A stretch of DNA of 64,000 nt from Silvibacterium bohemicum (GTDB lineage Bacteria > Acidobacteriota > Terriglobia > Terriglobales > Acidobacteriaceae): contig NZ_LBHJ01000004.1 of NCBI RefSeq assembly GCF_001006305.1, forward strand, positions 620,001-684,000. The letters run 5' to 3'. The position numbers and the translations under genes are program-made. This document shows, piece by piece, positions 16,088 to 39,853 of this stretch. Numbering within the stretch: the stretch's first letter is position 1; each line of letters starts with the position of its first letter. The notes beneath the pieces are model-generated. The model saw only the letters and a program-made list of their open reading frames with translations. It did not search any database and was not told the origin of the DNA.

Positions 16088-17077
16088 CTAGAATCCCCAA
16101 ACGATGCTCCCACCTGTCATCCCGGCGCCTGCAGCAGTCAAAAGCAATCGCTCTCCTGAGACGAAGGGATGATCTTTATGAGCAAGAGACAAAGATAGGG
16201 GAATGGTGGCTGCCGACGAGTTTCCGGACTCTTCGATTGTGCGCACCGTCTTGCTCTTTTCCAATCCAAGGTTTTCGCAAACCGCATTCAAGATGCGGAT
16301 ATTGGCTTGATGCGGCACGAAACGATCGATGTTTGCCGCTGTCAGTCCAGCCTGCTCCATCGCGCGAGTCGAGCACTCCGTCATCATGCGCACAGCCTGC
16401 GAGAACACCGATTTGCTACTACTCATCGTCATCAATAGCTCATTCGGGTCCATGCCTGCAACGAAAGGCTTCCTGCTCCCACCTGCGGGAATCGCAATCA
16501 GGCCATAGAGGCTTCCGTCAGAGGTCAGATCGACGCCGAGAATTCCAACCTCCGGCGAAGTTGAAGGAACCAGCACCACCGCTCCGGCTGCATCAGCAAA
16601 CAGGATTGAGCTGCCGCGCTCTTCGGGATTGATACGCCGGCTCAAAATATTGGCCGCCACGATGAGAACGGGCTTGCCTTGCGTGCGAACAAAACCATCG
16701 GCCAGAGTTAATGCATAAAGGAACCCTGAACAAGCACCGGCGAGATCGATGGCGCCGGAGTGCGAGAGGTTCAATTGATGAGCGAGCAGCGGAGCGGATG
16801 GCGGCAACAGGTGATCAGGCGTCGACGTTGCGAGAAGGGTCAGCGCCACTTCGTTGCGCGCGATCCCCGCATCCTCCAGGGCCATCTCTCCAGCCTTCCT
16901 GGCAAGATCCGTCAGCGCCTCATCGGGAGCGGCCCAACGGCGAGCGCGGATGCCGGTGCGGCGCTCGATCCAGCCGGATTCAAGACCAAGCCGCGTCTCG
17001 ATCTCAGCGTTTTCGACGCGCCGCTCCGGAACATAGTGTCCTAAACCAGCAATGCGGCTCGATTGCACCCGCATCAT
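16088..17077 (-). CDS. bioZ: beta-ketoacyl-ACP synthase III in the biotin operon; candidate BioZ
   Basis: A 329-residue KAS III of normal length. The Cys-His-Asn triad is complete: C116 in [14 protein letters not shown]256 in VPHQANIRI and N286 in EESGNSSAA. By sequence alone FabH is possible. Its place as the last gene of bioB-F-D-A, joined to bioA by a 4-nt overlap, matches the bioBFDAZ order described in alphaproteobacteria, where BioZ condenses glutaryl-CoA with malonyl-ACP to start the pimeloyl precursor. No bioC or bioH is visible in the operon, which fits that role. Symbol assigned by context; confidence in KAS III is high, in BioZ moderate. Confidence 0.75.
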
Positions 17078-18348
17078 TTCTGGGCCTTGCCAATCACATC
17101 AGCTGCCTCATCGATGGCCGCATAAGCCCGATCGAGATCATCGGACGTCACACAGTAAGGTGTCATCAGATAGATCACGTTGCCAAGCGGACGGATGAGG
17201 AGATCTCTCTGCCGAAAGAAAGCTCTCAGCTTCGGCCCAACGTCCGAGAGATATCCGGATGTCGAAACATCGAGGTCCAGAGCGGCAATCGTGCCCGTCT
17301 GCCGGACGTTGACGAAGCGCGGATCAGAGCGGAATGGCGTTAGTCTCTCACGGTGCATGTGCTCCAGCGTCTCGATACGTTTGAGAACCGGCTCATTCTG
17401 CCATACGGTGAGATTCGCAAGCGCCGCTGCGCACGCGATGGGATTGGCTGTGTAAGAGCTCGAATGGAAGAACATCCGGCTGCGATCGGAGGACAGGTGC
17501 GCATCGAATATCTCGGCGGAACATAGCGTCGCGGCAAGAGGCAGCGCACCTCCGGTAATGCCCTTCGACACACACAGAATGTCGGGCGTGATGCCTGCCT
17601 GTTCGCAAGCGAAAACCGTGCCGGTTCTTCCCCACCCTGTCATTACTTCGTCGGCGATGAATAAGGTTCCGTAGCGCGTCGCGATCCGCTTCAACTCCGC
17701 CAGCAGATGCGGAGGATACATCTTCATCCCGCCCGCCCCTAGGATAAGCGGTTCGATCAGCAGCGCAGCTACTTCCTCGCCAAGGCAGAGTTGCTCGAAG
17801 GCATCGAGCGTCTCCTGTTCATGGCCGGGCGCAGGAAACGGAATGGTGTCCACATCGAAGAGCAGCGCTCCGTAGGCCGCGTTGAAGACACCGCGTTCGC
17901 CAACGGACATCGCGCCAATGGTGTCGCCGTGATAGCCGTGCTCCATTACGACGATGCGTGAGCGCGAGCATCCTCTATTATGAAAGAAACCCAGCGCCAT
18001 CTTCAACGCTACTTCCACCGATGTCGATCCGCTATCGGAATAGAAGACGTGCGCCAGACCGGGCGGAGCAAGCCGGATCAATCCTTGCGCCAGCTCTTCC
18101 GCCGGTTCATGGGTGTATTCGGCGAAGATGATCTGATCGAAGCTCTCGGTTGCCGAACGAATCGCCTCCATGATGGCCGGATGCCTGTGCCCATGCGTAA
18201 TGACCCACCAGGAAGAGATCGCATCGAGAATTGAACGGCCATGTTCATCGATGAGGTAGGCGCCGTCTGTCCTGACGATCCTGGTGGTTACAGGCTCCAA
18301 GGCATGTTGGGTGAAGGGGTGCCATACAGGCGAAGGCGAACGCGTCAT
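17074..18348 (-). CDS. bioA: adenosylmethionine-8-amino-7-oxononanoate aminotransferase
   Basis: A 424-residue class III aminotransferase. It has the BioA-specific [10 protein letters not shown] (about 45-54), [17 protein letters not shown], the D233-containing [14 protein letters not shown] and the PLP lysine K262 in [14 protein letters not shown]. It converts 7-keto-8-aminopelargonate to 7,8-diaminopelargonate using S-adenosylmethionine. It overlaps bioD upstream and the KAS III gene downstream by 4 nt each, so all are translated from one message. Confidence 0.95.
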
Positions 18349-18983
18349 GCGATCACCTCTCCGAAGGAAGAAATGTCGAAGTGTTCGCGAAACGCCTGGC
18401 GTAGAGTGTCAGAGTTCAATCCTTCCAGGCGGGGCAGCCTGCCGAGGACACGGACATCTCCCATCTCCGCGATGGTTCGTTGCGTATCGGGATAAGCATC
18501 CCCCAGGAACGCGATGCCCAGGACAGGAATTCGGCGTTGCCGCAACGCTTCCAACGACAACAGCGTGTGATTGATGGTTCCGAGAGCGGTTCGAGCGCAG
18601 AGGACGACCGGAATCTGCCAGCGCGCAAAAACATCCGCGAATGTCTGATGACGTGTGAGGGGAACGAGCAGCCCGCCTGCGCCTTCGATGACGAGAGGCA
18701 AAGACGTGTGGGGCAGCTCCAGCGCATAGGGATCGATCGTCACCCCATCGATCTCTGCAGAAAGATGCGGCGAGACCGGTGTGTTGAGCCGCCATGCTTC
18801 GGGGAAGATGCGTTCGGACGGTATCCGCCCCAGCCGGAGGACGGTCTCGCTGTCGGTTTCCCCGTCAAGGCCGGATTGAACGGGTTTCCAATAGCACGCA
18901 TCGAGAGCATCGGTCAGCGCGGCAGAAAACACCGTTTTGCCAATCCCCGTATCAGTGCCCGTGACAACGATCCGCAAGCTCAT
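18345..18983 (-). CDS. bioD: dethiobiotin synthetase
   Basis: A 212-residue P-loop enzyme. The ATP loop [11 protein letters not shown] is at residues 9-19, followed by [21 protein letters not shown] and [17 protein letters not shown], all typical of BioD. It forms the ureido ring of dethiobiotin from diaminopelargonate, CO2 and ATP. The open frame runs 20 codons further up into bioF, but the ATG used here gives the ATGA overlap seen at every junction of this operon and leaves the P-loop at the usual distance from the start. Confidence 0.95.
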
Positions 18984-20125
18984 AGGTGCTCCTGCGCCAT
19001 AACCTGTGCCAGCCGTTCGAACATATTGGCGATAACCGGGCAATCGACATTCAATGTAATCGCGATTCGCAGGCGCGCCGTATTTGCTGGGACTGTAGGA
19101 GGACGGATGGCGCGAATATCGAATCCATCGGCCTGCATCTGTTGCGCAACCCTCAAAGTTCGGGCACTGTCGCCGAGGATGACCGGAAGTATCTGTGAGC
19201 CGCTGCCTTGAATTCCGAGATGACGGACCAACTGCTCGTTAGCGTATTCGATCATTCTCTGCAGCTTGTGCCGTAGCTGCGGTTCATCTGCAAGAATGCG
19301 CAGAGCCTCACGAACGCTGGCTGCAGCCAGCGGAGACGGAGCAGTCGCATAGATAAAAGGACGCGCGTGATTCACGAGATAGTCGCAGAGAACGCTGCTT
19401 CCTCCGACGAGCGCGCCAGATGAGCCAAGCGCCTTTCCACAGGTATGAAGCACGACGACATTGTCGCGCCCTTCCAACCCGGCCGCTAGACCACGACCAT
19501 CTGCGCCGTGAACACCCGTCGCGTGCGCTTCATCGATCAGAAGAAAACCGTCGTAGCGGTCGGCCACCTCGGCAAGTCCGGCAAGAGGGCTCCTGTCGCC
19601 ATCCATCGAGTAGAGGCTTTCGACCGCGATCCAGGGATGTCCTTTGCCGCCCTCATCGCGCCAATTGCGGATGACATCTGCAAATGCGTCGAGGTCATTG
19701 TGAGGTACAGCAACGGCTTTGGCCCGTCCCGCGGCCATTCCCTCATGCGCGCTCGCATGAATCAATTCGTCATAAACGACGAGATCGTTGCGCTGCGGCA
19801 GCGTCGAGATTATCGCGACATTCGCGGCATAGCCGCTGCCGAAATACAGCATTCGCTCGGAATGAAAGAATGCGGCCGCTTCCGCTTCCAGGGCTTCATG
19901 CTCGGGATGGTTGCCACGAAGGAGACGCGATCCGCCTGCGCCAACCGGCACTCCCCGCTCGATTGCAGAGATTACACTCGCGCTCAACCGAGCTGAGCCT
20001 GCAAGGCCAAGATAGTCGTTCGAGGTGAAGTCTATACCGCTTGGTTGCGTTAGAGTGCGCCGCCTTCCCTTCCGTTCGAGCTGCTCCAGCGTGGCCGCAT
20101 ATCGAGCCAGCCGTTGCGGCATCAT
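18980..20125 (-). CDS. bioF: 8-amino-7-oxononanoate synthase
   Basis: A 381-residue alpha-oxoamine synthase. Recognisable blocks are [44 protein letters not shown] (PLP aspartate and histidine) and the PLP lysine in [16 protein letters not shown]. It condenses pimeloyl-ACP (or -CoA) with alanine. It starts MM; the first ATG overlaps the bioB stop by 4 nt. Length and order of motifs are complete, with no sign of damage. Confidence 0.95.
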
Positions 20126-21132
20126 TCGACGGTGCTCATCGCCTCTGGCGCCAATCCGAGGCGGTGAAAGAGACTGCTGTCACGGTCTTCTCCGGGATTC
20201 GCGGCTGTCAGAAGAGTGTCGCCGACAAAGATCGAATTGGCCCCGGCAAAGAAGCAGAGAGCCTGCAGCTCGTCTGACATGCCTTTTCGTCCGGCCGAGA
20301 GGCGGACATGGGATGCGGGTATAAGAATACGGGCAAGCGCGATGATCCGGATGAATTCGATCGGATCGACGGGCGGCGCATCGGCGAGCTTCGATCCCGG
20401 AATGGGGATGAGCATATTGATCGGCACGCTCTCGGGCGGTGCAGGCAGATTGGCCAGCGTCACAAGCATGTCGATGCGATCTTCAGCAGTTTCGCCCATG
20501 CCGATAATGCCGCCGGCACACACTTTGATGCCTGCCTGCCGGACATTTTCCAGCGTTTCGAGACGATCTCCAAAACTCCTGGTGGTGATGATCTCCCCAT
20601 AAAACCGCTTCGACGTATCGATATTGTGGTTGTAGTAATCGAGCCCGGCTTCGGCAAGGGATTCAGCCTGCTCGGACGACAGCATTCCCAGCGTCATGCA
20701 TGTTTCCAGGCCGAGCGCTTTCACGCCCTCAACCATTGCGACGACCATTTCCATGTCGCGCTGCTTGGGGCTGCGCCAGGCGGCTCCCATGCAGTAGCGG
20801 GTGGCTCCGCCTTCCTTTGCCTTGCGCGCTTCGGCTATGACGTGCTCAACCTCCATCAGCTTCGAAGCGTTGAGGCCGGTCGCATAGCGGGCAGATTGGC
20901 TGCAATAGCCGCAATCCTCGGGGCACCCTCCGGTTTTTATGCTGAGCAATTTACTCAGCTGTACCCGGTTTGGATCGAAGTTCTCCCGGTGCACGGAGTG
21001 CGCGCGAAACAAGAGGTCATTGAACGGCAGCTCATACACTGCGCGTGCGGCGGCGGAGGTCCAGCGCGTAACTGAAGTGAGGGGCGCCGCGGCCACCTGT
21101 TCGGAAGGCACGAATGCGATTTCTTCATTCAT
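20122..21132 (-). CDS. bioB: biotin synthase
   Basis: A 336-residue radical SAM enzyme. The 4Fe-4S motif CPEDCGYC gives cysteines C70, C74 and C77; YYNHNIDTS, the GGIIGMGE glycine motif and SAGRKGM-with-arginine for the 2Fe-2S cluster follow. It inserts sulfur into dethiobiotin. First gene of the operon. AGGAGG lies somewhat far (about 17 bases) upstream of the ATG, with another ATG out of frame between. The upstream 325-base region is shared with the divergent MMPL transporter gene; no BirA, BioQ or BioR operator was recognised in it. Confidence 0.95.
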
Positions 21133-32650: not shown

Positions 32651-33715
32651 CTATGCGGTAAACGAACGTCCCAGACCCAGCGCAGCCAAGCCCTTGCGGT
32701 ACGCGATAGAGCTTCGATCCGCGGGAAAATGGGCTTCCGCGTGGAGATCGAGAGGCAGGTCTTCCGGGTATTGTTGCTCGACAATCGCCTGGTCCTCAGC
32801 AAAGACCTGATGATTGAATTCCAGCGTTGCCTGAAGCGGGGCGTCTTTATCGAAGTTTCGGCATATCGGAACAAAGAGCCTTGTTTTTCGCGCCGACACG
32901 GGCGAAGCGGCATTGAGGATGTGAAGCTGGCCGTTGGGAAAGAAGACGGTCAGTTTTGCCGTGAATGGCAGATAGGTCTCAAAACGCCGCCGCCAGAGAA
33001 AGCCCGGCGGATTGAGATGCTTGAAATCCTTCGAGTAATTGCTGACGGAGCTGATGTAGTCGGCGACAAATCCATTGGCCGTTTTCGTCACGGCGTAGTC
33101 GGGGACTTCCGGATTATCGAGTTCGCCAAAGGTCTCCACGTGCACAAATGCAAAGTGGCTCACGTCGAGGAAGCCTTCGACCTGTCTGCCTGCTGCGGCA
33201 TTCATGGCAACGCTGTTGGGCAGCACCTGGATGTAATCGGGATCGGACCACTCGCTCATCTCCGGCAGTCTTGCCTCGTCGTTCGCAATGAGCTGCACCC
33301 AGACCAGACCGAACGCTTCCTGCGCGCGAAACATATGCAAATGGAGGCGCGGAGAAATGGCTCCCTTGGGATGCGCCGGGATGCACGTGCACTGGCCGGA
33401 AGCGTTATACCGCAGGCCATGATACTTGCATATAATCTCGTCTTTCTCGACGCTGCCCAGGCTTAATGGAGCGCCACGGTGAAAGCAGATGTCCTTTGCG
33501 GCGACGATCTTTCCATCACTCAAGCGATAGAGGACCACGCGTTCATCCAGCAGCCGAGCGGCGTAAGGTTTGTCGCTGACCTCATGCGAGAACGCGACCG
33601 GATACCAGTGCGGAGCGAGCGCATGCCAATCCGATACGGAAAAAGTACAGTCACGCGGAAGTGACTCACGGGATGACCGAACGTCGGTGGGAAGAATCGT
33701 GGGAATCGTTGCCAT
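32651..33715 (-). CDS. Rieske non-haem iron oxygenase (vanillate demethylase/ring-hydroxylase alpha-subunit type)
   Basis: A 354-residue oxygenase. The Rieske 2Fe-2S ligands are C77, H79, C96 and H99 (ICFHRGAPLS ... ICKYHGLRY). The mononuclear iron site is D184, H187 and H192 in GFLDVSHFAFVH. The overall shape fits single-component alpha subunits such as vanillate O-demethylase oxygenases and related decarboxylating or N-demethylating enzymes. No reductase or ferredoxin gene is next to it, so electron supply must come from elsewhere. It is divergent from a LysR regulator, a common layout for a regulator and its target. The substrate is unknown. Confidence 0.85.
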   Translation of the reverse strand: MATIPTILPTDVRSSRESLPRDCTFSVSDWHALAPHWYPVAFSHEVSDKPYAARLLDERVVLYRLSDGKIVAAKDICFHRGAPLSLGSVEKDEIICKYHGLRYNASGQCTCIPAHPKGAISPRLHLHMFRAQEAFGLVWVQLIANDEARLPEMSEWSDPDYIQVLPNSVAMNAAAGRQVEGFLDVSHFAFVHVETFGELDNPEVPDYAVTKTANGFVADYISSVSNYSKDFKHLNPPGFLWRRRFETYLPFTAKLTVFFPNGQLHILNAASPVSARKTRLFVPICRNFDKDAPLQATLEFNHQVFAEDQAIVEQQYPEDLPLDLHAEAHFPADRSSIAYRKGLAALGLGRSFTA

Positions 33716-33822: not shown

Positions 33823-34725
33823 ATGATTCTCCGGCACCTTGAATTCCTTACAGCATTGGCGAGAGAAAGACATTTCGCGCGAGCCGCGGCCTCCTGCCAC
33901 GTAACGCAATCGACGCTCTCCGCGGGGATCAAGCAAATGGAGGAGAGCCTCGGCGTTCTACTGGTCGAACGCGGGCAGCGCTTCCTGGGGCTCACTCCAG
34001 AGGGCGAAAAAGTTCTTGAGTGGGCCAAGCACGTCATCGTCGACTATGAAGGGCTGCAGCAGAGTCTTTCAGAGATGCGACGGGGCTTGACCGGATATTT
34101 GAAGATTGGCGCGATTCCCGTCACCCTGCCGGTGATTTCTCTACTCACAACACCGTTCGCCAAACTCCATCCTCACACTCACATTGTGATTCGCAGCCTG
34201 ACCTCGATTGAGATTCAGAGGGGCATCGACGAACTCACACTGGACATCGGAGTGACTTATCTCGATAACGAGCCACTGGCCAGGGTTCGTAGGCTCCAGC
34301 TATATCCCGAGCATTATGTTTTTCTGACCCGTAAAAGTCCAGGTGTCGAAGAGCGGAAGACGATTCCGTGGGCAGAAGCAGCGAACTATCCCCTCTGCCT
34401 CCTGACCTCCGACATGCAGAATCGCAGGATCATCGACATGCATTTCCGCGGAGCGGGAGCCACAGTCAATGCGGCCATCGAAACGAATTCTCTAATCACG
34501 CTGTGGTCACATTTGAAATTCGGCCAGTGGTCGACCGTGGTGCCGAACTCGTTTCTCTCTCTGATTGGTAACGTGGATGGACTTGTTGCGCTCGCACTGG
34601 TCGAACCGGATGCCGCGCACGTAGTTGGCCTCGTGGCATCCGATCGTGATCCCTTGCCTCCGGTCGCGCGGGCGTTTCTTGACCTGGCCAAACAAGTAAA
34701 TCTCAACGAAGAAATGAAGCGATGA
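33823..34725 (+). CDS. LysR-family transcriptional regulator (possibly CynR-like)
   Basis: A 300-residue regulator: HTH HLEFLTALARERHFARAAASCHVTQSTLSAGIKQMEESLG, a linker helix, then a type 2 periplasmic-binding fold (GYLKIGAIPVTLPVISLL, ELTLDIGVTYL). A TTG five codons upstream is also open, but the ATG gives the usual LysR N-terminus. It is 130 bases upstream of the formate dehydrogenase-cyanase genes on the same strand and divergent from the Rieske oxygenase gene; it may control either. A role comparable to CynR, which senses cyanate, is an inference from position. Confidence 0.85.
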   Translation: MILRHLEFLTALARERHFARAAASCHVTQSTLSAGIKQMEESLGVLLVERGQRFLGLTPEGEKVLEWAKHVIVDYEGLQQSLSEMRRGLTGYLKIGAIPVTLPVISLLTTPFAKLHPHTHIVIRSLTSIEIQRGIDELTLDIGVTYLDNEPLARVRRLQLYPEHYVFLTRKSPGVEERKTIPWAEAANYPLCLLTSDMQNRRIIDMHFRGAGATVNAAIETNSLITLWSHLKFGQWSTVVPNSFLSLIGNVDGLVALALVEPDAAHVVGLVASDRDPLPPVARAFLDLAKQVNLNEEMKR

Positions 34726-34831
34726 CTTGCGCAGCTCTATCCATGATTCACGCATTCGCAATGATGATCGATATCTTCGATTGCCCCATTGAAGTCCTTT
34801 GTTTGACCGTCGTTCTTTCACTTTGAGAGCG

Positions 34832-34856
34832 TTGTTTCCGTAAGTGGAGGAAACAA
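34832..34856 (+). promoter_or_regulatory. hairpin masking the ribosome site and start of fdh
   Basis: TTGTTTCC and GGAAACAA form a perfect 8-bp stem with a nine-base loop. The 3' arm includes the last two bases of the GGAGG ribosome site and the A of the ATG. In RNA this would hide the start region, so it may limit translation unless opened. Confidence 0.4.
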
Positions 34857-36016
34857 TGGCAAAGATACTTTGTGTGCTGTACGACGACCCTGTTACCGGC
34901 TACCCCAAGAGTTACGCTCGCAACGACATTCCCAAAATCGATCACTATCCAGGCGGTCAGACAGCTCCGACACCGAAGGCAATTGACTTCAAGCCCGGCG
35001 AGTTGCTCGGCAGCGTTTCCGGTGAACTCGGCCTGCGCAAGTATCTTGAGGGCCTCGGCCACACCTTCGTTGTCACGTCGGATAAGGAAGGCGCTGACTC
35101 GGTATTCGATCGCGAGCTGCCCGATACGGATATCGTCATCTCGCAGCCGTTCTGGCCGGCCTACTTGACGCCGGAGCGCATCGCGAAGGCGAAGAAACTG
35201 AAGCTGGCAATCACGGCCGGCATCGGCTCCGACCACGTGAACCTGGAAGCCGCCATCAAGCACGGCATCACCGTTGCCGAGGTCACATTCTCCAACAGCA
35301 TCAGCGTGTCGGAGCATGTGCTCATGATGATCCTCTCGCTGGTGCGCAATTATCTGCCGTCCCACGAGTGGGTGCTCAAAGGCGGCTGGAACATCGCGGA
35401 TTGTGTCGAGCGCTCCTATGATCTCGAAGGCATGCATGTGGGAACCGTTGCCGCGGGCCGCATCGGACTTGCAGTGTTGAAGCGCCTGAAGCCCTTCGAT
35501 GTAAAACTGCACTACTTCGATCAACACCGTCTGCCTGAGGCCGTAGAGAAGGAACTCGGTCTCACCCACCACACGAGCGTCGAGGACATGGTCAAGGTCT
35601 GCGACGTGGTAACGATCAACGCACCGCTGCATCCTGGCACGCTCGACCTCTTCAACGAGGAGCTGATTGGCAAGATGAAGCGCGGCGCTTATCTCGTCAA
35701 CACCGCTCGCGGCCTGATCTGCAATCGTGAAGCAATCGTTCGCGCACTGGAGAGCGGTCAACTTGCCGGATACGCCGGCGATGTGTGGTATCCGCAGCCC
35801 GCTCCGCAGAATCACCCGTGGCGGACGATGCCTCACCATGGCATGACCCCGCATATCTCCGGCACATCGCTTTCGGCTCAGACGCGCTACGCTGCCGGCA
35901 CACGGGAAATCCTGGAGTGCTTCTTCGAGAATCGTCCTATCCGCGAGGAGTACCTGATCGTGGACGGAGGTAAGCTCGCTGGAGCCGGGGCGCATTCCTA
36001 TACCGTGAAGAAGTAA
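34856..36016 (+). CDS. fdh: NAD-dependent formate dehydrogenase
   Basis: A 386-residue D-2-hydroxyacid-dehydrogenase-fold enzyme, near-colinear with Pseudomonas sp. 101 FDH: MAKILCVLYDDPVTGYPKSYAR, KIDHYPGGQT, ISQPFWPAYLTPERIAKAKKL, the NAD loop GTVAAGRIGLAVL, NTARG (catalytic arginine), WYPQPAP (glutamine) and GMTPHISGTSLSAQTRYAAGTREILEC (histidine). All catalytic residues are in place. The cysteine before the substrate asparagine in the Pseudomonas enzyme is serine here (SNSISV), and the long C-terminal tail is missing. It oxidises formate to CO2 with NAD+. It is 68 bases upstream of cyanase, with a hairpin between. GGAGG precedes the ATG. Confidence 0.95.
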   Translation: MAKILCVLYDDPVTGYPKSYARNDIPKIDHYPGGQTAPTPKAIDFKPGELLGSVSGELGLRKYLEGLGHTFVVTSDKEGADSVFDRELPDTDIVISQPFWPAYLTPERIAKAKKLKLAITAGIGSDHVNLEAAIKHGITVAEVTFSNSISVSEHVLMMILSLVRNYLPSHEWVLKGGWNIADCVERSYDLEGMHVGTVAAGRIGLAVLKRLKPFDVKLHYFDQHRLPEAVEKELGLTHHTSVEDMVKVCDVVTINAPLHPGTLDLFNEELIGKMKRGAYLVNTARGLICNREAIVRALESGQLAGYAGDVWYPQPAPQNHPWRTMPHHGMTPHISGTSLSAQTRYAAGTREILECFFENRPIREEYLIVDGGKLAGAGAHSYTVKK

Positions 36017-36036
36017 AGCACCACTCAACCGAATCA

Positions 36037-36065
36037 TGACGGGCGAAGCCAACCTTCGCCCGTCA
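36037..36065 (+). promoter_or_regulatory. intercistronic hairpin between fdh and cynS
   Basis: A perfect 12-bp stem, TGACGGGCGAAG with CTTCGCCCGTCA, and a five-base loop (CCAAC). It is followed by ATTCATTT rather than a solid U-run, then by the cynS ribosome site. It could partly terminate the message or protect the upstream part from decay, setting different amounts of the two enzymes. Confidence 0.6.
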
Positions 36066-36084
36066 ATTCATTTAGGAGAAATCG

Positions 36085-36531
36085 ATGACGCGCGAAGAAC
36101 TCACCGCAAAGATACTGGATGCGAAGCGAAAGAAGGGTCTTTCATGGAAACAGATTGCAGAAGCTGTCGGACCGGGATCGCCGATCCTCTATACGGCCGC
36201 GCTGCTCGGGCAGATGACACTGACGAAGGAAGAAGCCGGCAAGCTGGCAAAGTTCCTGGAATTGGATGAGTCAGAGGTCGCGCTGCTTGCTGAGCCGCCC
36301 TACAGGGGTTCCCTGCCCGCCGTTCCGCCAACCGATCCGTTGATCTATCGCTTCCATGAACTCGTACAGACCTACGGCACCACATGGAAGGCTCTGATCG
36401 AGGAAGAGTTCGGCGACGGCATCATGAGCGCAATCGATTTCGATATGGAGATCAGCCGCGAACAGAATCCCAAAGGCGACCGGGTACGCATCACCATGTC
36501 CGGAAAGTTCCTGCCCTACAAGCGTTACTGA
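36085..36531 (+). CDS. cynS: cyanate hydratase (cyanase)
   Basis: A 148-residue cyanase. The N-terminal POU-like helical domain (LTAKILDAKRKKGLSWKQIAE) is followed by the conserved C-terminal catalytic domain PPTDPLIYRFHELVQTYGTTWKALIEEEFGDGIMSAIDFDM. The catalytic residues R89, E92 and S115 correspond to Arg96, Glu99 and Ser122 of the E. coli enzyme. It converts cyanate and bicarbonate to ammonia and CO2 in a decamer. TTAGGAG is well placed before the ATG. No carbonic anhydrase (cynT) or cyanate transporter gene is adjacent; formate dehydrogenase occupies that place. Confidence 0.96.
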   Translation: MTREELTAKILDAKRKKGLSWKQIAEAVGPGSPILYTAALLGQMTLTKEEAGKLAKFLELDESEVALLAEPPYRGSLPAVPPTDPLIYRFHELVQTYGTTWKALIEEEFGDGIMSAIDFDMEISREQNPKGDRVRITMSGKFLPYKRY

Positions 36532-36544
36532 GCAACTCTGCGCG

Positions 36545-36904
36545 GTGTGCTTTGATAGAGATGTGAGCATACCGAGACCGGAAGTTCGGGGAGTGGAGTT
36601 GGATGCAGAGACACGTTGCGTCCACTATCATTCAGCGCTCGACATCCTTGCGATCAGAATGCGCTGCTGCGGCGTCTACTACGCCTGCAAGGATTGCCAC
36701 GAAGTCCTCGCCGATCACGCTATCCAGGTATGGCTCCGCTCCGAGTGGAACGTTCGCGCGGTTCTTTGCGGGGCGTGCGGTCATGAACTGACGATTCGCG
36801 AATACGTGGATAGCGGGTCGCAGTGTCCGCAATGCGCAGCCGGATTCAACCCCGGCTGCAGGAATCATTACCACTTCTACTTTGCAACAGAAGACGCCAG
36901 CTGA
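36545..36904 (+). CDS. CHY-type zinc-finger protein
   Basis: A 119-residue protein with the CHY zinc-finger pattern: CVHYHS, then ILAIRMRCCGVYYACKDCHEVLADHAI, then VLCGACGHELTI, QCPQCAAGFNPGC and HYHFYF. At least ten cysteine and histidine ligands for several zinc ions are visible. Bacterial members are small and of unknown function. Start is GTG, either this one, or another six codons later with AGAGA upstream. It follows cynS by 13 bases, so it is probably in the same transcript. Its last 28 bases overlap the end of the convergent fRMsr gene. Confidence 0.75.
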   Translation: MCFDRDVSIPRPEVRGVELDAETRCVHYHSALDILAIRMRCCGVYYACKDCHEVLADHAIQVWLRSEWNVRAVLCGACGHELTIREYVDSGSQCPQCAAGFNPGCRNHYHFYFATEDAS

Positions 36905-37374
36905 GACCGCTCGATAAAGCCGCCTACGATATCTGCACACTCTTCCAGGAATTCACGATCGGCCGAAGAGAAGGCCGCCAGGTCGTGGCTGTCGATGTCG
37001 ATCTCGCCAACGACAACGCCGTTGGCTCGCACTGGAACAACGATCTCGGATTTGGTCTCCAGTGAGCAGGCAAGGTAGCGCGGATCGGCGTTGACGTCAT
37101 CGACGATAACAGTGTCATTCTGCGCGACAGCTGCTCCGCAGATGCCCTCGTGTACAGGGATACGAACGTGCTCGGTGGGCGCTCCGCGAAATGGTCCGAG
37201 AACGAGCGTCTCCGGATCATTGGGATCGAGCATGTAAAAGCCTGTCCAATTGTAGTAAGACAAGCGGGCCGGAATGATCTCGACGATGAACTTCTGCAGC
37301 GCTTCGAGATCGTTCGCGTGGGAGGCGAACGATCTCACTTCAGAGACAATCTGGACGAAGGCATTTTCGGGCAT
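36877..37374 (-). CDS. msrC: free methionine-(R)-sulfoxide reductase (GAF-domain fRMsr)
   Basis: A 165-residue GAF-domain enzyme: YYNWTGFYMLD, LVLGPFRGAP, VRIPVHEGICGAAV, VDDVNADPRYLACSLETKSEIVVPV and GEIDIDSHDLAAFSSADREFLE, the fRMsr signature. C79 and C103 match Cys94 and Cys118 of the E. coli enzyme; the equivalent of Cys84 is histidine (H69), so the relay of disulfides may differ. It reduces free L-methionine-(R)-sulfoxide in the cytosol. The gene is third in a unit with exported MsrB, four bases upstream, and a thioredoxin-like gene. Its 3' end overlaps a convergent gene by 28 bases. Confidence 0.88.
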   Translation of the reverse strand: MPENAFVQIVSEVRSFASHANDLEALQKFIVEIIPARLSYYNWTGFYMLDPNDPETLVLGPFRGAPTEHVRIPVHEGICGAAVAQNDTVIVDDVNADPRYLACSLETKSEIVVPVRANGVVVGEIDIDSHDLAAFSSADREFLEECADIVGGFIERSQLASSVAK

Positions 37375-37378
37375 GCTT

Positions 37379-37990
37379 CTATTGTGCGCCCTTCAAGGCA
37401 TCGGCCAATTTCACGAATTTGAGTGCGACAGAATTCATGCAGTAGCGGAGGCCGGTTGGTCTTGGGCCGTCATCGAAGACGTGACCAAGGTGGGCATCGC
37501 ATCGCCTGCACCGAACCTCGGTACGTTCCATCCCTATAGAGAGATCCGTGTTTTCACGGACATTTTCTTTGGCGATGGCTTGCCAGAAGCTCGGCCATCC
37601 CGTGCCCGATTCGAACTTCGTGTCGGAATTGAAAAGCAGCGTGTCGCAGCAGATGCAGTGATACAGCCCCTTGTCGTGCAAGTTCCAGTATTCGCCAGAG
37701 TATGGTCTCTCCGTGCCGGCACGCCGTGTGACCTGATAGGCAGCCGGTGAGAGCTGCTGTTCCCACTCTGCATCCGTCTTGATAATCACAGGAACCGTGA
37801 CTGCATCTTTTCGTTGTCCGGAGGCGGAGAACTCGACGATCTTCACTTCTTTTGGAAGCTCGGGTCTCGCCTGTACTATCTCGGTTCCATGCCGAAGCTT
37901 GAGAGCGAACGCAACTGCGGCTGCTCCTCCAGCGATCAGGAACAGCCGCCGGTTCGTCCCATTCTTGTTGTCATCCTGTTTCTGAATCAT
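37379..37990 (-). CDS. msrB: exported peptide-methionine (R)-S-oxide reductase
   Basis: A 203-residue protein. An N-terminal [18 protein letters not shown] resembles a Tat signal or an uncleaved anchor. The MsrB domain starts near residue 70: [27 protein letters not shown], zinc motifs CICC and [19 protein letters not shown], and catalytic cysteine in [11 protein letters not shown]. It repairs R-methionine sulfoxide in proteins outside the cytoplasm. It lies 11 bases after the thioredoxin-like gene and 4 bases before fRMsr, so the three are one operon. Confidence 0.9.
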
Positions 37991-38001: not shown

Positions 38002-39087
38002 TTATCCGAAGGTAAATGAAAACGCCTGTACTCCCGGATCTTCAAACTCGATCGCAAACGTATGGTCTGTGATGGAGCCCTTTTGTCTTACCAATTGATA
38101 TAAACGGTGATCTTTCACCACACCATTTCCCTGCGCATCCGTATCGTCCCCGTGGTTTTCTCCTGGAGCCTGTCCGTCGATTGTCACTCGGAAGCGGATG
38201 GGCTTGCCGTCAGCACTCGGACCCAGTACCAGATGCAGATCACGGGCATGGAAGCGGAAGAGGATCTTTCCTCCGGGAGATCGAAGCACAGCTACTTGCC
38301 CATGATCGAGCCAGTCGCCGGTCAACCCCCAATCGTTTAGCTGAAGATGACTCGGCGCAATATAGAGCTGCTCCGCATCGCGCTTGATGCCGCCTGGAGA
38401 TACAAAATGCTGGGCGCGCGAGTAGCCAATGTAGGTTTCAGGAGACCGGACATCGCTCATGTCCGCGGCGGCCTGGGCTCCCTGCCCATGCACACTCACC
38501 AGGCTCGCCGGCATCTGCTTGGCGTTTGCTTCTTTCAGAAGCTCCTGTATCCATCGCTCGGATTGGTCATATTCGCCTTCTCCGAAATGTTCGTAGCGAA
38601 CCTTGCCCTTGGCATCGATGAAGTAGTGGGCAGGCCAATATTGATTGTGAAACGCATTCCAGATCGCGTAGTTGTTATCCAGTGCGACTGGATACGTGAT
38701 GCCAAACTTCTGCACCGCTTTCTGGACATTCGGCAATTGCTTTTCAACGTCGAACTCAGGCGTGTGAACTCCGATTACCACCAGCCCGCTGTCCTTGTAC
38801 TTATCCGCCCACGCGCGGATGTAAGGGATTGCGCGAATGCAATTGATGCAGGAATAGTCCCAGAAATCGACGAGGACAACCTTGCCCTTGAGTTCCTTCG
38901 CCGTCAGCGGCTTGGAGTTGATCCAATCTGTGGCGCCCGCGAGCCCAGGCAGCGGAGAGCTCCCGACGATGCTCGGCGGCTCCTGCGCTTCGGAGAGAGA
39001 AGAACCGAGCGCCAGGCTGATCAGAACCGCAGCAACGGCCATGACTACGGACGATCTCATAAACCTTACGCGGGAAGGAATCGGCAT
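38002..39087 (-). CDS. exported thioredoxin-like protein, DipZ C-terminal type
   Basis: About 361 residues. A Sec signal ([18 protein letters not shown]) is followed by a redoxin domain with CXXC C80-I-N-C83 in [23 protein letters not shown], and then by the beta-sandwich domain found at the end of DipZ proteins ([77 protein letters not shown]). Unlike mycobacterial DipZ there is no CcdA membrane part, so the electron source is elsewhere. As first gene of the msrB operon it is a good candidate reductant for the exported MsrB. An ATG nine codons later is an alternative start. Confidence 0.85.
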
Positions 39088-39124
39088 CTGGCGTTCTGCC
39101 CCTCCATTGGGCACACTCTCTATA

Positions 39125-39853
39125 ATGAGCCAAGTCCACATGGCAGACCACACTCGTATAGTAGATAGCTCAGAAGAGCGAAAGGTTACAGAGCTTCGCA
39201 TCGCACAGGAGAAAGCGAAGCAGCTCTTTGACCAGGTCGAAACGCGCGGCTTGATCCGCTCTGGTATCGCGGAAAGCCAGCTAAACCGGGAGGTTTACGA
39301 TCTCGCGAAGGAGATGTACGGCATCTCGACGTACTGGCACAAGCGAATGGTTCGCGCCGGAGCCAATACGCTGCTGCCCTACGACGACAATCCGCCAGAT
39401 CACGTCATCAGAGCAGATGAGATTCTCTTTCTGGACCTCGGCCCTGTCTTCGAAGAGTATGAGGCGGATTTTGGCCGAACTTTTGTGATCGGATCAGATC
39501 CTGCCAAGCTGAAGATGCGCGACGACGTCGCCAAGGCGTTTGCGGATGGGAAACGCTACTTCTGGCAACACCCGGACATTACCGCGAGCCAGCTCTATGA
39601 GCATGCCGTCTCCCTCGCAGAAAAATACGGCTGGGAGTTTGGCGGACCGATCGCCGGACATCTAATAGGCCACTTTCCTCACGAGCGAATTGCAGAGGAT
39701 AAAGTGACCCTCTACGTCCACCCGAAGAGCAACCTGCGCATGCGTTCGACCAGCGAGAGCGGCCAGCGAAGGCACTGGATCCTGGAGATTCATTTCATCG
39801 ACCGCGAGCGCCAGATCGGAGGCTTTTTTGAAGAGCTGCTGACTGTAGACTGA
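39125..39853 (+). CDS. M24-family (Xaa-Pro aminopeptidase/creatinase fold) protein
   Basis: About 242 residues with the pita-bread fold of M24 peptidases but no N-terminal domain. Metal-ligand candidates can be followed: FLDLGPVFEEYEADFGRTF (two aspartates), GHLIGHFPHE (histidine) and the glutamate in ILEIHFID; the last typical glutamate is less clear. It may be a peptidase or a non-peptidase relative. The open frame extends far upstream into the divergent thioredoxin-like gene. Two ATGs five codons apart are possible; the first overlaps a perfect TATAAT, so the second may be the true start on a very short leader. Confidence 0.7.
   Translation: MSQVHMADHTRIVDSSEERKVTELRIAQEKAKQLFDQVETRGLIRSGIAESQLNREVYDLAKEMYGISTYWHKRMVRAGANTLLPYDDNPPDHVIRADEILFLDLGPVFEEYEADFGRTFVIGSDPAKLKMRDDVAKAFADGKRYFWQHPDITASQLYEHAVSLAEKYGWEFGGPIAGHLIGHFPHERIAEDKVTLYVHPKSNLRMRSTSESGQRRHWILEIHFIDRERQIGGFFEELLTVD

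Follow-up and report, generated by a model that had tools for sequence, protein, structure and literature searches.

The window described here is a stretch of 64,000 nt of the Silvibacterium bohemicum genome (Acidobacteriota, family Acidobacteriaceae; contig NZ_LBHJ01000004.1, positions 620,001 to 684,000). Four intact genes, all on the + strand, occupy its positions 33823-36904 and code for a LysR-type regulator, a formate dehydrogenase (FDH), the cyanase CynS and a CHY zinc-finger protein (Table 1). They are separated by gaps of 130 nt (LysR-FDH), 68 nt (FDH-CynS) and only 13 nt (CynS-CHY). The cluster had been recognised in a preliminary description made from the letters alone, and its positions, strand and family matches were all confirmed.

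Table 1. Features of the LysR-FDH-CynS-CHY locus and its surroundings, in window coordinates
Feature	Position	Strand	Family match or other basis
Rieske/VanA-type oxygenase, divergent from LysR	32651..33715	-	PF00355, PF19112
LysR-type regulator, FDH-linked kind, not CynR by curated cut-off	33823..34725	+	PF00126/PF03466
Candidate LysR box ATCGATATCTTCGAT, upstream of FDH	34767..34781	.	conserved pattern ATCGA-N5-TCGAT
NAD(P)-dependent formate dehydrogenase, 386 aa	34856..36016	+	NF005750; full-length PDB 6t8c match
12-pair hairpin between FDH and CynS, no long T-run	36037..36065	+	fold, covariation, terminator-like scan match
Cyanase CynS, 148 aa	36085..36531	+	TIGR00673, PRK02866, PDB cyanate hydratases
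Stand-alone CHY zinc-finger protein	36545..36904 (start GTG 36545 or 36563)	+	PF05495
GAF-domain protein, older CHY neighbour	36877..37374	-	PF01590/PF13185
MsrB methionine sulfoxide reductase	37379..37990	-	PF01641, TIGR00357
Thioredoxin-like/redoxin protein	38002..39201	-	PF17991, PF00578
Small M24 metallopeptidase-fold protein, start unsure	39122..39853	+	PF00557, 76 bits

Both the helix-turn-helix and the substrate domain of the LysR protein are found by Pfam, and the ATG at 33823 is preferred to the start of the longest open reading frame (ORF). FDH reaches 705 bits against NF005750 (cut-off 329) with 385/386 positions covered. Its preferred start, the ATG at 34856, is preceded by GGAGGA and aligns with residue 1 of PDB 6t8c, which we take to be the Granulicella mallensis FDH and which matches over the full length (E 4.5e-246). 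The cofactor segment HYFDQHRLPE is common to both proteins. The G. mallensis enzyme is reportedly dual-cofactor; use of NADP by the window FDH may be assumed from a relative. The segments TARG and PHISGTS, presumably carrying the catalytic Arg and His, are both present.

CynS scores 167.5 bits against TIGR00673 (cut-off 113.3), also exceeds the PRK02866 cut-off and matches cyanate hydratases in the PDB. R89, E92 and S115, located by the YRFHE and MSAIDF segments, are present and presumably constitute the catalytic Arg-Glu-Ser of cyanase (96, 99 and 122 in E. coli). The CHY protein matches PF05495 with 40.8 bits (cut-off 31.3); its PDB matches are weak, the best being Sal-like protein 4 at E 0.0003.

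Distribution and origin of the FDH-cynS pair

The pair was sought in samples of 396 genomes of the phylum, 150 of the family, 296 of actinomycetes and 142 of alphaproteobacteria, and in 72,556 plasmid records. At the FDH call threshold used in the phylum sample (E<=1e-120), FDH is present in 5/396 genomes and cyanase in 4/396; two genomes, the window genome and G103, have both and have them adjacent (hypergeometric p 0.0008, uncorrected for shared ancestry). The loci of the three other FDH-bearing genomes of this sample contain no cyanase. FDH was found in 4/150 family genomes, among them G516, which provides the third LysR-FDH-CynS-CHY case. The gene order is kept both in G103, together with Rieske, GAF, redoxin and M24 genes, and in G516, where the contig starts within LysR and GAF follows. 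Identity of CynS to the window copy is 72 and 79% (G103 and G516).

Among the plasmids, a joined FDH+CynS query was covered at >=80% in four records, all of them from Pseudonocardia and representing three strains. The three annotated records carry M24, FDH, CynS and CHY genes one after another, with a 4-nt overlap between FDH and CynS; in the fourth, CHY and M24 matches lie close to FDH-CynS. No MsrB gene is annotated beside this pair. The neighbourhood survey thus takes the pairing beyond one genome, to G103, G516 and four Pseudonocardia plasmid records: it is rare but not unique. No description of an fdh-cynS pair was noticed in the literature searched, as far as the available parts of the sources go. 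Aldoxime dehydratase-family and aldehyde dehydrogenase genes are located about 5 kb from the Pseudonocardia pair (L192, 15717-18257).

Loci with only one of the two genes were also inspected. G061 keeps LysR and an FDH with a shortened C-terminal end (L101, 7510-9472); the break in FDH is marked by a TonB-receptor-like ORF on the opposite strand, and neither CynS nor CHY is present in 16 kb around. G139, a genome of the same genus, carries an FDH of another lineage (70%), followed by a strong terminator (L103, 8276-9530), and no LysR or CynS was found beside it. Seven unpaired acidobacterial cyanase loci were scanned. An NADPH-dependent FMN reductase adjoins cyanase in three (L104, L105, L013) and an acetolactate synthase small subunit in two (L028, L046), so cyanase partners vary.

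In actinomycetes, cyanase was found in 29 genomes (30 matches) and FDH in 11 (14 matches); 2/142 alphaproteobacteria have FDH. M24 stands beside FDH in one of the 14 actinomycete FDH loci (G653). FDH adjoins M24 in 1/14 actinomycete M24 loci, and cyanase in none of them. M24 and cyanase share actinomycete genomes in 6/14 cases (Fisher p 0.0009), a figure that is uncorrected for relatedness, combines an M24 list (14) from a 148-genome draw with a cyanase list from the 296-genome draw, and was given no weight.

In the CynS tree, the window-family CynS sit among named Acidobacteriota, and the three paired ones cluster together inside unpaired acidobacterial CynS. Pseudonocardia CynS falls in another part of the tree together with the CynS of G564, a genome that shows no FDH in 8 kb around this gene. 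Forcing the four paired CynS together was rejected in the approximately unbiased (AU) test (p 0.00012) on a careful tree of 34 rows, a subset chosen from 118 rows after a quick tree had given p 0.056, so that the smaller value calls for some caution. Since the CynS trees place the two pairings in separate lineages, the pairing probably arose twice by separate assembly; the evidence is mainly that of CynS. A single cassette moved between phyla is not favoured, as the CynS lineages are separate and the window M24 groups with its own family (support 100/100); the CHY tree is poorly resolved. As this uncommon combination appears to have been assembled independently in a bacterium of no close relation, it is probably useful rather than accidental. 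The presence of M24 and CHY genes also around the Pseudonocardia pair is striking.

The regulator, its candidate box and the FDH-CynS hairpin

The window LysR scores 137.4 bits against the CynR model NF008416, far below its cut-off of 277, while a Streptomyces CynR encoded beside carbonic anhydrase and cyanase reaches 440.9 bits. Scores close to that of the window protein are given by LysRs located upstream of FDH in Azospirillum (132) and Paraburkholderia (152) and by the Paracoccus LysR heading fdsGBA (125), which is similar to the window LysR. A LysR gene lies directly upstream of FDH in the same strand at six of the 14 actinomycete FDH loci (tail to tail at one, not found at seven), and directly upstream also in Azospirillum and Paraburkholderia. 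In the LysR tree, which kept the row 'Paraburkh_other' despite its very long branch, four CynRs stand apart on a long branch, although joining them with the window LysR is rejected only at AU p 0.051. The suggestion that this regulator senses cyanate as CynR does is not favoured on curated score and gene neighbours. As the protein falls far below the CynR cut-off and resembles LysRs encoded beside formate dehydrogenases, formate appears to be the likelier signal. Formate-inducibility has been reported for Cupriavidus necator FdsR (4.5-fold, Km 130 uM; PMC7057948).

The inverted repeat ATCGA-N5-TCGAT is present, within a conserved block, in all four family LysR-FDH gaps examined (window, G103, G516, G061) and absent before the FDH genes of G313 and G139, both of which lack an adjoining LysR. 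The window contains one exact match to it, and four more with one mismatch, which is the chance level. A similar box, ATCGATACGTCCGAT, is located upstream of the Pseudonocardia FDH, and GATAG-type inverted repeats precede several actinomycete FDHs; both were noticed after the fact.

The hairpin between FDH and CynS is kept in all three family genomes with the pair. Its fold has -25.2 kcal/mol in the window (z -5.5), with z -4.5 in G516 and -2.4 in G103. Both-side changes occur in 4/12 pairs among the three sequences, a number reached by 28/500 shuffles. A long T-run is missing from it, in contrast to the terminator of the G139 FDH, and many other FDHs also show stable downstream structure; it may therefore represent a weakened terminator belonging to FDH, act as an attenuator or have a stabilising role. 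The promoter scan found no consensus promoter in the FDH-CynS gap. Read-through past the hairpin into CynS is likely, and FDH and CynS would then share a transcript.

Older surroundings of the CHY gene

CHY genes are present in 16/150 genomes of the family sample, the window genome and G516 included. Near CHY in the other 14, for which wider flanks were taken, there is neither FDH nor CynS; GAF is found there in nine loci, M24 in six (immediately preceding CHY in three), MsrB in four and redoxin in three. CHY thus belongs to an older GAF/MsrB/M24 neighbourhood and was probably there before FDH-CynS. Its inclusion in the cluster by the preliminary description holds as far as the position 13 nt from CynS is concerned; as a dedicated cyanase partner, CHY was rejected on the same 14 genomes. 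Nothing in the literature searched links a bacterial CHY protein to formate. All four of GAF, MsrB, redoxin and M24 occur near CHY in two of the 14 loci, and parts of the set in more.

The GAF-domain protein of the window is presumably a free methionine-R-sulfoxide reductase. MsrB was not found at the G103 or G516 locus, and redoxin and M24 are also missing from G516's 10 kb. On the other side of the cluster, the Rieske/VanA oxygenase is found at the G103 locus too (78%) and was not seen at the G061 locus; the G516 contig stops short of its place. Further away in the window (16088-21132), a ketoacyl-ACP synthase III, two aminotransferases and a biotin-synthase-like radical SAM protein are encoded in an arrangement resembling a biotin operon.

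Cyanase behind a probably formate-responsive unit: interpretation and known systems

The best explanation, in which our confidence is about even, is that cyanase has been recruited behind a formate-responsive LysR-FDH unit, where it would dispose of cyanate produced at times when formate is produced too. It starts from what is observed at the loci: which genes are present and in what order, that they recur in three family genomes and in Pseudonocardia, and that box and hairpin are conserved. We infer a shared transcript, formate as the LysR ligand and a common source of both substrates. The self-contained LysR-FDH unit, met in three phyla, would oxidise formate, yielding CO2 and NAD(P)H; the regulator of the unit probably responds to formate and acts at the candidate box just upstream of FDH. 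In the ancestor of a few family genomes, the cyanase gene would have been placed directly behind FDH and before the older CHY, and read-through past the hairpin would give CynS (and CHY). FDH and cyanase together could then clear co-arising formate and cyanate, leaving CO2, ammonia and reductant. The obvious common source would be cyanide or formamide breakdown; for cyanide, general biochemistry suggests that it could give rise to the two compounds.

A number of results weigh against this explanation. Two of the four phylum cyanase genomes are unpaired, with no FDH in the 16-17 kb around cyanase (G359, G352). Cyanase and FDH co-occur in three actinomycete genomes, nowhere adjacent (p 0.08, not significant). 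FDH is found at 0/30 actinomycete cyanase loci (flanks of about 1.3-1.5 kb, one shorter), and CynS is found at 0/14 actinomycete and 0/2 alphaproteobacterial FDH loci. Nor is FDH present at any of the 80 best cyanase loci among the matches listed for genome_contigs, 74 of which had more than 1.5 kb on both sides; CHY and M24 are likewise at 0/80. No LysR stands beside the Pseudonocardia pair. Forcing the four paired CynS together was not rejected on the earlier 118-row quick tree (p 0.056), and FDH alone does not demonstrate a separate origin (AU p 0.083 when forced together). A kinship of the window LysR with CynR is rejected only at AU p 0.051. In one set-up of PMC7057948, the formate promoter was not significantly induced. 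Finally, transcription of FDH might stop at the hairpin.

Some weight falls to accidental neighbourhood, in which cyanase would have come to lie behind FDH without sharing a function with it and would be expressed alone or hardly at all: nearly all surveyed cyanase and FDH loci are without the partner, a hairpin stands between the two genes, and other acidobacterial cyanases adjoin an FMN reductase or an acetolactate synthase subunit. We nevertheless regard it as unlikely, though by no means negligible, since the order is kept in three genomes despite the divergence of CynS, the tight Pseudonocardia pair comes from another CynS lineage, and the FDH-CynS gap offers no consensus promoter.

Extending recruitment of cyanase behind FDH to the flanking genes, one might see FDH, cyanase, CHY and the small M24 protein as a single working unit, built up on two or more occasions (in Acidobacteriota and in Actinomycetota), through which formate would govern the breakdown of cyanate. 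This would hint at a so far unrecognised compound or pathway giving rise to formate and cyanate together. We put this forward tentatively and consider it rather improbable.

A redox-repair block appears quite improbable. There, MsrB, the thioredoxin-like protein and the GAF reductase would draw their NAD(P)H from FDH, and cyanase would remove carbamoylating cyanate that arises under oxidative stress. MsrB, GAF, redoxin and M24 do stand beside CHY in the window and partly in other genomes, and the G. mallensis FDH is said to be dual-cofactor. The incomplete sets at G103 and G516, the absence of FDH and CynS from 14/16 family CHY genomes and the lack of an annotated MsrB beside the Pseudonocardia pair speak against it.

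Cyanase itself releases CO2, so that the need is for hydration to bicarbonate, which requires carbonic anhydrase; FDH makes CO2 and does not hydrate it, and hence is no substitute. No carbonic anhydrase, CynT or CynX was found beside cynS among the neighbouring ORFs scanned with Pfam. Three Pro_CA matches, one of them partial, exist elsewhere in the genome; contigs C4 and C12 carry them, the window being part of C16. Although bicarbonate is consumed by cyanase, whose gene in E. coli shares a cluster with that of CynT (PMC6627978), it is thus very unlikely that FDH supplies CO2/bicarbonate to cyanase in place of carbonic anhydrase, the position assigned to it in the preliminary description.

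If cyanase has indeed been recruited behind a formate-responsive FDH, it would not be solely cyanate- or nitrogen-controlled and could belong to one-carbon (formate) metabolism. That the pair recurs in two phyla offers a direct, testable lead to where formate and cyanate might both come from, cyanide being the first candidate. The recurrence would also give a context to the bacterial CHY and small M24 proteins, the roles of which are, to our knowledge, not settled.

Pseudomonas fluorescens NCIMB 11764 reportedly converts cyanide to formate, which is oxidised by an NAD-dependent FDH, and is said to possess cyanase as well; we know of no fdh-cynS operon from this strain. The window differs from it in that the Pfam scan of 20 window ORFs revealed no nitrilase-type or cyanide enzyme. 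Like E. coli cynTSX with CynR (PMC6627978), the locus has a LysR gene close to that of cyanase and also encodes an enzyme linked to CO2; unlike it, there is no adjoining CynT or CynX, the LysR is not CynR by the cut-off, and the enzyme is FDH. A likeness of arrangement is also offered by LysR-FDH units and LysR(FdsR)-fdsGBA, where a similar LysR lies directly upstream of formate dehydrogenase. The position beside a formate dehydrogenase gene, a feature of FdsR-type regulators, is shared by the window LysR and its Azospirillum, Paraburkholderia, Paracoccus and actinomycete relatives. Unlike the LysR-FDH units and fdsGBA operons examined, which carry no cyanase, the window has one directly behind its FDH.

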